From IMG/VR virus record IMGVR_UViG_3300011115_000505, positions 1 through 20,531 of that record: a DNA stretch of 20,531 nt. One strand, written 5' to 3'. The position numbers and the translations under genes were made by a program. Positions 4,443 to 10,250 of the stretch are shown here, piece after piece. Within the stretch, counting starts at the first letter, position 1. Each line of letters starts with the position of its first letter. Source of the stretch: a virus. Under the pieces are notes generated by a model. The model saw nothing but the letters and a program-made list of their open reading frames with translations, ran no database searches and was not told where the DNA came from.

Positions 4443-5801
4443 ATGTCTAATGCTTTTTTAGCTTCTCTAAGAGAGAAGCGTGAGTCTAAGACTGCTCTTA
4501 TTCAATCCACTTTAGATCGTGCCGCCGAAGAGGTACGCGATCTGACAGAGGTAGAGCTTGCCAATGTAGAGGCACTCAATCTTGAAATCAAAAAGTTGGA
4601 TGAAAGAATTGAGCAGATGTCTGATATTGAAATTCGCAATCAAAAAGCCGCCGAATTGGCCGCTAAGGTTGATGTCAATGCAGATACCAAAAAGGAAGTT
4701 CGCGCCGGTGGATTTATTGTCACCAAAGAGGAACTTACTTATTCAGAGCGCACCGCCGACAAATTTTTAGGTGATGCACTAAAGGCACAGTTTGCTAATG
4801 ATTATGAAGCCGCCGAGCGTATTCAACGCCACCAAAAAGAGATGGCAATTGAAAAACGCGCATCTGATTCAGGCAATTTTGCCGGCCTTGTAGTACCTCA
4901 ATATCTAGTTGATTTGTATGCACCTCTAGCACGCGCCGGTAGGCCGTTTGCAGATGCCGCACGCAAACATCCACTACCAGCACAAGGTATGTCAGTAGTT
5001 ATCAGCCGTATTACAACCGGCACATCAGTGGCATATCAAACATCTGAAAACACTGCCGCGGTTAGCACAGATCCAGATGACACTACATTGACAGTTAATG
5101 TCAATACAATCGCTGGACAAAACAGCATCTCAAAGCAAGCTCTATTGCGCGGATACAATATTGAAAACATTGTATTAGCAGACTTATTACGCGCTTATCA
5201 CACTAAACTTGATGATGCGTTACTAAATGGATCAGGTTCAAATGGACAACCTCTAGGTCTAAAAGGTATGACCACAGGTATCCTTGTAACTTATACTGCT
5301 ACAACAGGAACAGTTGCAGGTCTTTATCCAAAAATTGCAGATTCAATCCAACAGATTCAATCAACAATTTATGCTAATCCAAACGCAATCATTATGCACC
5401 CACGCCGCTTAGGATTCCTATTGGCCGGGGTTGATGGTTCAAATCGCCCACTGGTAGTACCACAGGCTTACAATCCGCAAAATGCAATCGGTGTAGGCAA
5501 TGGAACACCTCAATACGGCAATAGCGGTTACTCAATACTTGGCTTGCCAATTATTACAGATGCCAACATTGCAACAAATGTCGGTGCTAGCACAAATCAA
5601 GACACAATCTTTGTGGTTGATCTTAATGAGTGTCACCTTTGGGAAGAGGCTGGATCTCCTACCTATGTGAAGTTTGAAGAGCCAAACGGCAAAGTTGCAA
5701 TCAACATTGTTATGTTTGGAATGTCAGCATTTACAAGCTTGAGATACCCAGGCGCAATTGCTCAAATCAATGGAACCGGATTAGCAGCACCAAGCTTCTA
5801 A
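4443..5801 (+). CDS. major capsid protein, HK97 fold
   Basis: A 452-residue shell protein. Residues 1 to about 105 are charged and helical (heptad-like, rich in Glu, Lys and Leu), as expected for the delta/scaffold domain removed by the upstream protease. The mature domain probably begins between residues 105 and 145, near EKRASDSGNFAGLVVP (137 onward). It then shows the usual segments: TTGTSVAYQTSENTAA, QNSISKQALLRG, LLNGSGSNGQPLGL, IIMHPRRLGFLLAG and a C-terminal AINIVMFGMSAFTSLRYPGA. The start is fixed by AGGAGAA at 4434-4440, a strong Shine-Dalgarno. It has its own candidate promoter and a hairpin behind it, so it can be made in excess over its neighbours. Confidence 0.95.
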   Translation: MSNAFLASLREKRESKTALIQSTLDRAAEEVRDLTEVELANVEALNLEIKKLDERIEQMSDIEIRNQKAAELAAKVDVNADTKKEVRAGGFIVTKEELTYSERTADKFLGDALKAQFANDYEAAERIQRHQKEMAIEKRASDSGNFAGLVVPQYLVDLYAPLARAGRPFADAARKHPLPAQGMSVVISRITTGTSVAYQTSENTAAVSTDPDDTTLTVNVNTIAGQNSISKQALLRGYNIENIVLADLLRAYHTKLDDALLNGSGSNGQPLGLKGMTTGILVTYTATTGTVAGLYPKIADSIQQIQSTIYANPNAIIMHPRRLGFLLAGVDGSNRPLVVPQAYNPQNAIGVGNGTPQYGNSGYSILGLPIITDANIATNVGASTNQDTIFVVDLNECHLWEEAGSPTYVKFEEPNGKVAINIVMFGMSAFTSLRYPGAIAQINGTGLAAPSF

Positions 5802-5812
5802 TCTAAAAATTT

Positions 5813-5842
5813 CTAAGCCCCCTACCCTTCCAGGGGGCTTAG
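5813..5842 (+). terminator. strong hairpin after the capsid gene
   Basis: CTAAGCCCCCT (5813-5823) and AGGGGGCTTAG (5832-5842) are perfect reverse complements, an 11-bp GC-rich stem with an 8-nt loop, 11 bases after the capsid stop. No U-run follows directly; a run of six T comes 17 bases later (5860-5865). It may be an imperfect terminator, a partial read-through point, or a 3' stabiliser of the capsid mRNA. Confidence 0.65.
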
Positions 5843-5851
5843 ATCCTAACT

Positions 5852-5921
5852 ATGGCCGGTTTTTTAAGAGATGGAGTTTGCTTAATGTCCCAGAGCAATA
5901 CAGATTTTGGAGACCGGCCAT
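5852..5921 (+). promoter_or_regulatory. 9-bp inverted repeat covering the connector start codon
   Basis: ATGGCCGGT (5852-5860) and ACCGGCCAT (5913-5921) are perfect reverse complements with 52 bases between them. The second arm includes the first two bases of the connector ATG (5920) and lies right beside its GGAG ribosome site (5909-5912). In mRNA the pairing would occlude translation initiation. This is a candidate translational switch or a paired protein-binding site. Confidence 0.4.
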
Positions 5922-6966: not shown

Positions 6967-7374
6967 ATGGCCATATTTATGGGTAATAAGGTAACTGTAG
7001 TTGCAGGAGCCACTACCATCAGCGATCATGTCAGCACTGTTAGTTTGAACCGCGAAGTTGAAGCGGTAACTATCACAGCCATGAATGATACTGTACAAAA
7101 CATGATTGGTGGAGTTGAGGTATCGTCAGTTAGTTTGGAAATATTCAATGACTTTGCCGCATCATCTGTCAATAGTGTTTTTGAAGATGCTATTGGTACT
7201 AAACTTGCAATTAAATTGATACCAGTGACCGGAACAGTTAGCGCAACAAATCCAAGTTACAGCATGTCTTGTTTAATCACTCAATGGACACCGATCTCAG
7301 GATCTACTGATGGTGCAATGACAGCTAGCGTTACTCTTCCAGTTACAGCTATTACAAAATCTACTAGCGCGTAA
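6967..7374 (+). CDS. major tail tube protein
   Basis: A 135-residue, beta-rich protein, heavy in Val, Thr, Ser and Ile. It contains GNKVTVVAGATTISDHVSTVSLNR, then VTITAMNDTVQNMIGG and VSSVSLEIFNDF, which match the pattern of compact actinophage tail-tube proteins (start strand, loop with conserved Asn/Asp, hairpin). It lies just before the tail assembly chaperone, the usual place. The Shine-Dalgarno AAAGGA at 6956-6961 sits 5 nt before the ATG. The size is at the short end for tail tubes but acceptable. Call rests on pattern plus position. Confidence 0.75.
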   Translation: MAIFMGNKVTVVAGATTISDHVSTVSLNREVEAVTITAMNDTVQNMIGGVEVSSVSLEIFNDFAASSVNSVFEDAIGTKLAIKLIPVTGTVSATNPSYSMSCLITQWTPISGSTDGAMTASVTLPVTAITKSTSA

Positions 7375-7388
7375 AGAAAAGGTGGGAC

Positions 7389-7646
7389 ATGCACAAAATA
7401 GAGATAACAAAGCAAGATGGAAAAAAATTAACTTATGAACTTACGCCATCTGTAAAGGTAGCCTTTGAGGCTGAATTTAAAACCGGATGGCGTAAGCGAT
7501 TAGGTGAGTTACAGCTTGAGTCAGATCTTTGGTGGTTCGCACATGCTCTTGAAAAAGCGGCTGGCAAAACTGATAAACCTTTTGGTGATGATTACATAAA
7601 TCAGTATGTAGATGTAGATTTATTATATGAACCAAAAAATGGCTAG
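7389..7646 (+). CDS. tail assembly chaperone, short form (gpG-like)
   Basis: An 85-residue zero-frame product starting MHKIEITKQDGKKLTYELTP. It is a small alpha/beta protein with a Trp-rich helix (GWRKRLGELQLESDLWWFAHALEKAAG). Proteins of this type lie between tail tube and tape measure genes and coat the tape measure during tail assembly. The Shine-Dalgarno region AAAAGGTGGG (7377-7386) is strong. The gene ends in CCA AAA AAT GGC TAG. That ending doubles as a slippery site giving a longer product (see the frameshift entry), as in lambda gpG/gpGT. Confidence 0.8.
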   Translation: MHKIEITKQDGKKLTYELTPSVKVAFEAEFKTGWRKRLGELQLESDLWWFAHALEKAAGKTDKPFGDDYINQYVDVDLLYEPKNG

Positions 7647-7801
7647 ACCGACATGGACAGATATGGGAGCTTGCATCTGTGTCGGTGGCTACCGGGTTAT
7701 CTCCCAAAGATCTCTTAGAGGTTGATCCGGCAATTTATCTTGCTATTAAAGCGATCTTGCAAGAGAGAGCGCAACAATCTAAGACAATGAGGCGTAAATA
7801 A
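7389..7801 (+). CDS. tail assembly chaperone, frameshifted long form (gpGT-like)
   Basis: A -1 slip on A AAA AAT (7634-7640) moves ribosomes from the 7389 frame into a frame read from TGG at 7640 to TAA at 7799-7801. It adds 53 residues beginning WLDRHGQIWELASVSVATGL and ending QSKTMRRK, for about 137 in total. The added frame has no start codon with a ribosome site of its own, and it ends exactly in a TAATG overlap with the next gene, so selection on it is hard to explain otherwise. Known biology: most siphoviruses make the long chaperone this way at a low fixed ratio. The added part would carry the tail-tube-binding T domain. Confidence 0.8.
7634..7686 (+). promoter_or_regulatory. programmed -1 ribosomal frameshift signal
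   Basis: The slippery heptamer A AAA AAT is at 7634-7640, in the right phase for a -1 slip. After a 6-nt spacer comes a stem: 7647-7657 (ACCGACATGGA) pairs with 7676-7686 (TCTGTGTCGGT), 11 base pairs including two G-U, with an 18-nt loop. Slippery sequence, spacer and stem all fall in the range known for bacterial and phage -1 frameshifting. Confidence 0.75.
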
Positions 7802-8418
7802 TGGCTGAAATAAGAATAGATGAACCTATCTATATCAAAAGTTTAGATGCCATATTAAAACGCATGAAAGAGATGGATCCTAAATTAGCAAAAAGATTTA
7901 AGAGAGAATTGAAGCAAGCCGTTCGACCAGTGCAACGCAAAGCTCAAAGTTTTGTACCTAACTCTCCATTTCCAGGATGGCGTGATACTAAACCCTTTTA
8001 TCCAACAGCATGGGGCTGGTCAAATGATACTTACCATAGAGGTAGGACTTATGGTAAAACTAATGAATCAAGATGGCAATGGTCAAAAGATCAAACTGTA
8101 AGTGGCATTGTTGTAACAGAGGCACCAACCTCTGTTAAAAGACAAGGATTTAACATAACTACATCAGCATTATCTGTACAAAATAAATCAGTACCGGGCA
8201 TCATTTATGAATTAGCCGGTTTTGGAACAGCACGAAGTAGAGGCAAAACTAGGAGAGTAAGTCGCAACAAAGATGCAAGTAATTTATTCATTGCTAAATT
8301 GGGCAAGCCTGAAAAACCTAGACTTATTTACAGAGCCGCTTATGAGATGGCTTCTCAGGTTCATGCTAATCTTTACGGCGTATTGAAAAAATATCTGGGC
8401 GAAAACTTTAAGGGCTAA
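7801..8418 (+). CDS. basic tail or neck protein, HK97 gp10-like (uncertain)
   Basis: A 205-residue, strongly basic protein. The N-terminal helix (residues about 14-50: LDAILKRMKEMDPKLAKRFK, then RELKQAVRPVQRKAQ) resembles the start of HK97 gp10-like head-tail proteins. A Trp/Tyr-rich stretch follows (PFYPTAWGWSNDTYHRGRTYG), then a Gly/Arg region (GFGTARSRGKTRRVSRN) and a C-terminal helix. It sits between the chaperone and the tape measure, whereas gp10-like proteins normally come before the tail tube, so the placement is odd. It could be a displaced head-tail joining protein or a minor tail protein. Start is a TAATG overlap with the frameshifted chaperone product. Confidence 0.5.
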   Translation: MAEIRIDEPIYIKSLDAILKRMKEMDPKLAKRFKRELKQAVRPVQRKAQSFVPNSPFPGWRDTKPFYPTAWGWSNDTYHRGRTYGKTNESRWQWSKDQTVSGIVVTEAPTSVKRQGFNITTSALSVQNKSVPGIIYELAGFGTARSRGKTRRVSRNKDASNLFIAKLGKPEKPRLIYRAAYEMASQVHANLYGVLKKYLGENFKG

Positions 8419-8420
8419 AA

Positions 8421-10250
8421 ATGGCACTCAGTTCAAATGTAGTAATTACCTTTTTAACTAAATTTGATAAAAAGGGGTTACAGCGTGCCACAAAAGAATT
8501 AAAAGGATTTGATGCTTTCCTTGCAAAAAGCAAGTTTATAGGCAAGGCCGCTTTAGTTACAGCCGGTATAGCCGGGGTTGTAGCTTTAGAAAAATTAGCC
8601 AGATCATCAATCCAAGCCGCACTTGAGCAAGAAAAATTAGACAAATCCATAGAGCAATCTCTCAGATCTATCAATAGACTTGGTGAATTAACCTCTGTAA
8701 AAACTTTTATATCTGATTTACAACGCACTACAAATATAACTGAAGATCAATTAACACCAGCTTTAAACTCTTTAATTATCCAAACTGGAGATTTAGAAAA
8801 AGCCCAAGGTCTATTCAAAGTTGCAGTAGATACCAGTGCCGGAGCCGGCTTGGATCTTGTTGCGGTAACTGATGCACTTGCCAAAGCAAGTAGAGGTAAT
8901 TTTAAAGCTCTAGGTACCTTGGGTCTAGGTTTTGATGCGGCTACTGCTAAAGCCGCCGGTTTAGATGAAATTACAGAATATTTGACATTAAAATTTGGTG
9001 GGTCTGCAAAAAGAGCTACAGAGACTTTTGGTGGTCAATTAGATGCATTGAAAATTAGTGCTGGTGAGGCACAAGAAAATCTTGGCCAAGGATTTGTTGA
9101 TGCTTTTGAAATCATATTAGGTGGTGCCAACGCGGCAGATTATTTTGGAGCAAAACTTGAATCTCTTGGATTAAATGGCGGGTACATTCTTGTAGCAATA
9201 GCAGATAAAGTCTCAAAAATTACAGATGCTTTTGATGGATTATCCAAAAAAATAAACAGTAATCCAATTTTGAAGTTTTTATTTACAGCCGAAAATATCC
9301 CAGTTGTAGGTGGTTGGTTGCAAGGATTTAAAGGATTAGCCGAAGAGGGCAAAAAAATATCCGAATCAACCGGTGAAACTTTAGAACAAACAGCAGAGCA
9401 AAAAGCCCTGGCAGAAAAATTGGCCGCACTACAAGCCAAGTTAGATAAGATGGCCAAAGATGCTTTGAATAAACAAAAGCAATTAACTAAAGAAAAATTG
9501 GCTCAACAAGCTTTAGATAAAAAGAAGGCTGAATTAGAGGCCATGTTTGACATGGATCGGATTAACCTACAGGCCGCATTGAGCCGTAAATTATCTGTTG
9601 AAGATGAAGCGCGGGTAAAAATATTACAAAGACTTAAAGATGGTACCAAAGAAGCCGTTGATGAAGCGCAACGCTATGCAGATGTTTTGAAAGTTATACA
9701 AGATGGCAAAATCACTACTGAGGAAATAGATCAGTTAGCAAAAATGTGGAACATGACTACAGAGGCAGTCAAGTTATATCTTATGAAATTATTTGAAGGC
9801 AATGATGAACTTAAGAAAATGCTTGGACTTTTGAAAGATGTCACCAAAGAAATTTTGGCGGCACAAACTATTTATCCAACTGGTAGGAGTATGGCAGAAT
9901 TTAGAGCCTACAAAGCTGGTGAAATAGCTAATAATATTCCACAAATATCAGCTCAACAAACCATTTACCCAACCGGTACAAGCATGACTGAATACTCTGC
10001 CTATCGTGCCGGAGAGAGAGCTATGGCAGATGGTGGAATTGTCACGCAACCAACTAGAGCTTTGATTGGTGAGGCCGGGGCTGAGGCAGTTATTCCTTTA
10101 GATCGCATGGGTGGTATTGGTCAAAGGGTCACAATAAATGTAGCCGGATCTGTAATCTCTGAGGGTCAATTACAATCAGTCATACAGGATGTTTTATATA
10201 ATTTAAATCGCACTGGGGCAGTCACACAACTAACAAACCTTGGTAGATAA
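8421..10250 (+). CDS. tape measure protein
   Basis: A 609-residue protein, the longest in the window, right after the chaperone region. It has a long helical body with Lys/Glu/Ala/Leu-rich coiled coil (about 320-400), a hydrophobic helix near residues 41-57 (AALVTAGIAGVVALEKL), and a C-terminal ADGGIVTQPTRALIGEAGAE segment typical of tape measures. It sets tail length: at the usual 0.15 nm per residue, about 90 nm, a short siphovirus tail. Residues 481-501 and 512-532 form an imperfect repeat. No lytic domain is visible. AAGGG at 8410-8414 is the ribosome site. Confidence 0.9.
   Translation: MALSSNVVITFLTKFDKKGLQRATKELKGFDAFLAKSKFIGKAALVTAGIAGVVALEKLARSSIQAALEQEKLDKSIEQSLRSINRLGELTSVKTFISDLQRTTNITEDQLTPALNSLIIQTGDLEKAQGLFKVAVDTSAGAGLDLVAVTDALAKASRGNFKALGTLGLGFDAATAKAAGLDEITEYLTLKFGGSAKRATETFGGQLDALKISAGEAQENLGQGFVDAFEIILGGANAADYFGAKLESLGLNGGYILVAIADKVSKITDAFDGLSKKINSNPILKFLFTAENIPVVGGWLQGFKGLAEEGKKISESTGETLEQTAEQKALAEKLAALQAKLDKMAKDALNKQKQLTKEKLAQQALDKKKAELEAMFDMDRINLQAALSRKLSVEDEARVKILQRLKDGTKEAVDEAQRYADVLKVIQDGKITTEEIDQLAKMWNMTTEAVKLYLMKLFEGNDELKKMLGLLKDVTKEILAAQTIYPTGRSMAEFRAYKAGEIANNIPQISAQQTIYPTGTSMTEYSAYRAGERAMADGGIVTQPTRALIGEAGAEAVIPLDRMGGIGQRVTINVAGSVISEGQLQSVIQDVLYNLNRTGAVTQLTNLGR
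9861..10016 (+). repeat. imperfect 31-residue tandem repeat inside the tape measure gene
   Basis: AQTIYPTGRSMAEFRAYKAGE (protein residues 481-501) recurs as an AQQTIYPTGTSMTEYSAYRAGE-type block at 511-532, a period of 31 residues or 93 bases. The DNA copies differ at many third positions (for example ACTATTTATCCA against ACCATTTACCCA), so the duplication is old and kept at protein level. Confidence 0.75.

Follow-up and report, generated by a model that had tools for sequence, protein, structure and literature searches.

A probable programmed -1 frameshift in a candidate tail assembly chaperone gene of an aquatic siphophage, with its signal conserved among related phages

In phage lambda, the gene for the tape measure protein is located directly after gene GT. 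The gpG and gpGT products of this phage are tail assembly chaperones that rely on a -1 frameshift (reviewed in PMC5009743). Sequences of chaperones of the lambda type are poorly conserved between phages, and in some tailed phages frameshifting can apparently do without a stimulator (PMC5009743). The locus described here shares with gpG/gpGT a short 0-frame product and a -1 extended product from a gene between those of the major tail protein and the tape measure, along with a canonical X XXY YYZ heptamer positioned just upstream of the stop of the 0 frame. It differs in having no detectable sequence or profile match to the lambda proteins, in its heptamer (A AAA AAT), in the sizes of its products (85 and 137 aa), in possessing a conserved downstream stem and in having an HK97-gp10-like gene that separates the extension from the tape measure gene, the latter being a feature that counts against a full lambda-like reading. 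Rhodococcus phages REQ1 and Jflix2 possess a related major tail protein and also have their chaperones upstream of the tape measure gene, with the frameshift joint annotated (as a joined CDS in Jflix2). They differ in that another hypothetical gene precedes the chaperone, and the extension of Jflix2 showed no similarity to that of the present locus visible by eye. A programmed -1 frameshift yielding a short and a long tail chaperone is the reading preferred for this locus, with an estimated probability of about 0.9.

The DNA analysed (hereafter the window) is the whole 20,531-base stretch of virus record IMGVR_UViG_3300011115_000505, which is AT-rich and has the head-tail gene order of a siphophage. 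Gene starts were located at 4443 (capsid), 5878 (connector), 6543 (tail terminator), 6967 (major tail protein), 7389 (85-aa ORF), 7801 (HK97-gp10-like protein) and 8421 (tape measure). The virus is an aquatic siphophage and probably has an actinobacterial host, since the nearest annotated relatives of its tail genes come from phages of Pontimonas and Rhodococcus, both actinobacteria. A bacterial genome collection scanned with the fusion protein and its alignment yielded no relative. The features of the locus and its neighbours are as follows.

6967..7374, + strand: major tail protein, neighbouring gene (phrog_4574, E 3.5e-14)
7389..7646, + strand: 0-frame ORF of 85 aa, putative short tail assembly chaperone, gpG-like (ORF, pN/pS 0.15, position, AlphaFold2)
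7634..7640, + strand: in-phase slippery heptamer A AAA AAT (no variation among 64 distinct homologous sequences)
7644..7646, + strand: 0-frame stop TAG, within the 6-nt spacer (invariant, 64/64)
7647..7686, + strand: putative stimulatory stem-loop, 7647-7657 paired with 7676-7686 over 11 bp around an 18-nt loop region (fold, covariation)
7640..7801, + strand: -1 frame extension of 53 codons plus TAA, T-like domain, WLDRHGQIWELASVSVATGLSPKDLLEVDPAIYLAIKAILQERAQQSKTMRRK (codon-phase shift, pN/pS, phiPsal1 homology)
7801..8418, + strand: HK97-gp10-like protein, between the chaperone and tape measure genes (PF04883, E 0.0012, falling slightly short of the curated cut-off)
8421..10250, + strand: tape measure protein, neighbouring gene (phrog_23574, E 3.3e-9)

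An earlier note on this DNA had described a slippery heptamer in phase, followed after a spacer of 6 nt by a stem of 11 bp, and a 53-codon -1 frame ending in an overlap with the next gene; each of these elements was reproduced. In the reading frame of the 85-aa ORF, the sequence AAAAAAT divides as A|AAA|AAT. It is thus an X XXY YYZ heptamer with the phasing, and the closeness to the 0-frame stop, expected of a -1 frameshift site. The spacer (7641-7646) reads GGCTAG and includes this stop, while the stem consists of 11 contiguous pairs, nine of these being Watson-Crick and two G-U. The region 7641-7690 was found to fold at -16.9 kcal/mol (ViennaRNA), with four extra pairs predicted inside the spacer. 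The -1 frame runs from 7640 to the TAA at 7799-7801, which overlaps the ATG at 7801 of the next gene (TAATG).

In-phase heptamers of the X XXY YYZ type are common in the AT-rich window, occurring at 54 of 6359 codon positions of its genes, and the heptamer on its own was therefore rejected as evidence. An open -1 frame of 53 codons would be expected by chance with P ~0.025 in dinucleotide-matched sequence. The downstream fold gave z = -3.3 against dinucleotide-model sequence, ranking 19th of 2049 windows, and z = -2.3 against synonymous recoding. It is conservation, rather than such single-sequence odds, that decides whether the frameshift is real.

Conservation was examined among the 80 closest homologous loci of IMG/VR, which with the window make 81 sequences, 64 of them distinct. 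The in-phase A AAA AAT, the spacer length and the stop were identical in 81/81. Each of the 80 homologues was found to have an 85-codon ORF ending A AAA AAT GGN TAG and a -1 extension of 53-55 codons, whose end in nearly all complete close homologues overlaps the start of the next gene (TAATG, TAGTG or ATGA). Site variability by codon position changed from 0.24/0.17/0.77 before the heptamer to 0.18/1.03/0.40 after it, third-position variability moving by exactly one base at the heptamer, from phase 3 of frame 0 to the same phase of frame -1. The G part (the 85-aa ORF) had a pN/pS of 0.15, and the extension a pN/pS of 0.21 in the -1 frame compared to 1.32 and 1.93 in the other two frames. Over the region of the extension the -1 frame is free of stops and both other frames contain them. 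The extension is thus a conserved -1 ORF joined to the 0-frame ORF and under purifying, protein-coding selection only in the -1 frame.

The signal was also found to be conserved beyond what the encoded residues account for. The lysine codon of the heptamer is always AAA, whereas five of the six other invariant lysine columns mix AAA and AAG, with the sixth being all AAG. The -1 codon lying over the TAG is NTA in 64/64 (CTA, TTA or ATA), compared to only 41% of codons ending in TA in other Leu/Ile columns. The 0-frame stop itself is therefore under selection, the overlapping -1 Leu/Ile codon being otherwise free to vary. At the level of sequence, comparison thus shows that the frame changes, where and in which direction it does so, that both products are under selection and that the signal is conserved; the occurrence of frameshifting, its efficiency and the chaperone function are what we infer.

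A stimulatory structure 5-8 nt downstream of a -1 site is usual, but not obligatory. Here the 11-bp stem lies 6 nt downstream and covaries. On an alignment of 37 distinct sites of the close family, the stem was paired in 93.4% of cells, with a covariation score of 0.206, whereas shuffles averaged 0.143 and none of 500 scored as high; the score collapsed once the stem was displaced by one column. Three pairs were found to be changed on both sides. Compensation is clear at the fifth pair, where the lineages L021, L070, L071 and L075 have C-G in place of A-U, and at the second pair, where locus L048 has U-A in place of C-G. Compared with synonymously recoded -1 frames, these 37 sites had a mean z of -2.2, and 89% of them fell below -1.5. 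For remote relatives, described below, 45% of distinct sites were below z -1.5, amounting to a stable stem in about half, and some (e.g. L110, L126) had no stable downstream stem; the stem is therefore regarded as a helper and not a defining part. The earlier note had named homologues lacking the heptamer and stem as a finding that would speak against it. The heptamer was kept identical in 80/80 close homologues, with 50 remote ones keeping an in-phase X XXY YYZ sequence, and the stem was kept, with compensatory changes, in the close family, but not always in the remote one.

The product is considered to be a putative tail assembly chaperone of the lambda type on the basis of gene position and architecture. 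Searches of Pfam, NCBIfam, PHROG and the PDB gave no match naming the 85-aa or fusion protein as a tail chaperone, PHROG giving for the extension a weak match to phrog_166 'tail protein' (E 0.009). Sequence and fold searches of the PDB gave nothing meaningful, and viral fold matches were only to uncharacterised phage proteins. AlphaFold2 predicted a compact alpha/beta G part (pLDDT 91.6) and an extension of three helices (pLDDT 83.7). As no profile or solved structure matches, the role proposed in the earlier note is derived from position and architecture: gene order and architecture fit gpG/gpGT, but no family or fold match says so.

It is accordingly conceivable, if improbable, that the frameshift is real and that its products are not chaperones of the gpG/gpGT type but have another tail or neck role, for instance with the HK97-gp10-like protein. 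Besides the missing matches, such a role would fit the observation that in all close relatives with enough flanking sequence it is the HK97-gp10-like gene, and not the tape measure gene, that comes directly 3' of the extension. In remote relatives a gene of similar size occupies this slot, with weak or no BLAST similarity to the HK97-gp10-like gene. However, the candidate gene is flanked by those of the major tail protein and the tape measure, with a single gene separating the extension from the latter, and at the sequence level it has two products with one N-terminus, the longer by frameshift; this placement after the major tail protein gene, the shared N-terminus and the small size are a lambda-type hallmark. 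The poor sequence conservation of such chaperones between phages (PMC5009743) also speaks against this alternative. A more speculative proposal, thought to have little chance of being correct, is that these genes form a separate tail-chaperone lineage in aquatic, probably actinobacterial, phages, in which the frameshift domain works with the HK97-gp10-like protein. If true, supply of a neck or completion protein would be part of the chaperone switch, beyond its linking of tape measure and tail tube.

The GenBank phage collection held no direct match to the fusion of the window, and the link to Pontimonas phage phiPsal1 (MG835450) came via the major tail protein. This is a phage sequence obtained from a DNA preparation of P. 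salivibrio and not kept in culture (PMC6106888). Gene 016 of phiPsal1 (83 residues), annotated only as a hypothetical protein, ends A AAA AAA TAA and is followed by an unannotated -1 extension of 55 codons. The fused product was found to align with the window family from end to end (29% identity, E ~1e-11). A homologous protein, a -1 extension and the order tail tube, chaperone, 17 and tape measure are therefore shared with the window, with phiPsal1 differing in having its own heptamer, A AAA AAA, and a TAA immediately after it. A further 49 viral (metagenomic) loci share the phiPsal1-type -1 arrangement, and among these 50 remote loci the heptamer is A AAA AAA in 39 and C CCA AAA in 11. In addition, gp13 of EBPR siphovirus 6 (JF412301; L136, 1481-1850) continues in the -1 frame with an unannotated extension. 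Its candidate shift site, C CCT TTG, is less certain because the overlap is longer.

These heptamers bear on a further explanation, considered highly doubtful, in which RNA polymerase slips on the A6 run and an extra A in some mRNAs joins the two frames. The runs of six A's in the window and seven in phiPsal1 would suit such slippage. However, six A's are short for polymerase slippage, the 11 loci with C CCA AAA have only four, and the equivalent site of EBPR siphovirus 6 reads C CCT TTG. What is conserved, an X XXY YYZ phase and a stem 6 nt downstream, resembles a ribosomal signal. That C CCA AAA can replace an A-run in the gene of a homologous protein points to slippage by ribosomes and not by polymerase, and polymerase slippage was rejected.

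Even less probable is that the extension is a separate small gene translated by re-initiation without any fusion. Termination-reinitiation is common in phages, and the window offers potential starts at codons 14 and 16 of the extension (both GTG), with GTG, ATG or TTG at codon 14 in 59/64 sequences. In 63/64, a stop only three codons before the shift site blocks the -1 frame, so that ribosomes can enter the extension only through a shift or a restart within it. A restart at codon 14 is opposed by the conservation, as -1 protein, of the 13 codons before it (WLDRHGQIWE...), and would leave the conservation of the heptamer and stem unexplained; re-initiation was rejected on these grounds. That a single 137-aa ORF was split by an indel, through sequencing error or gene decay, is suggested by nothing beyond the frame break itself and a 1-nt change of this kind in locus L090, and is refuted by the same break in 80 independent contigs and 50 more with other heptamers.

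Under the preferred reading of programmed -1 frameshifting, most ribosomes would translate 7389-7646 and stop at the TAG at 7644, giving the 85-aa short chaperone. The stem-loop may pause a minority of ribosomes, whose P- and A-site tRNAs (Lys-AAA, Asn-AAT) would re-pair one base back on AAA AAA within 7634-7640. These ribosomes would then read 53 codons in the -1 frame, giving a 137-aa fusion that ends at the TAA. By analogy with gpG/gpGT, many short copies may coat the tape measure and a few long copies may recruit the major tail protein via the helical domain encoded in the -1 frame. In E. coli, heterogeneous ZZN codons, AAU among them, are less prone to shifting than AAA/AAG (PMC4066793). 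A AAA AAT thus does not rank with the strongest heptamers of bacteria, which counts against the frameshift reading; no efficiency value for it was found in the text examined of this motif survey.

These results strongly support a new, unannotated frameshift family of an already known device. It covers 130 related phage loci, in which three types of heptamer occur with one homologous protein and the stimulatory stem covaries. Current views of how tails assemble are not altered by it. The family provides a natural series for the study of slippery-site swaps in evolution and is of use for annotation, as the records of phiPsal1 and EBPR siphovirus 6 lack the fusion product. The annotated start of phiPsal1 gene 017 falls inside the -1 extension (L082, 5667-5842) and is probably too early. 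Locus L090 was the only contig found out of frame, with a 1-nt deletion just after the heptamer (~3230) that turns TAG into TG. Its near relatives L091-L093 are intact, and the deletion is either a mutation or an assembly error. Elsewhere in the window, the most stable 50-nt fold begins at 5801, right after the end of the major capsid gene (5801), and the fold at 5801-5860 is probably a terminator or processing hairpin.
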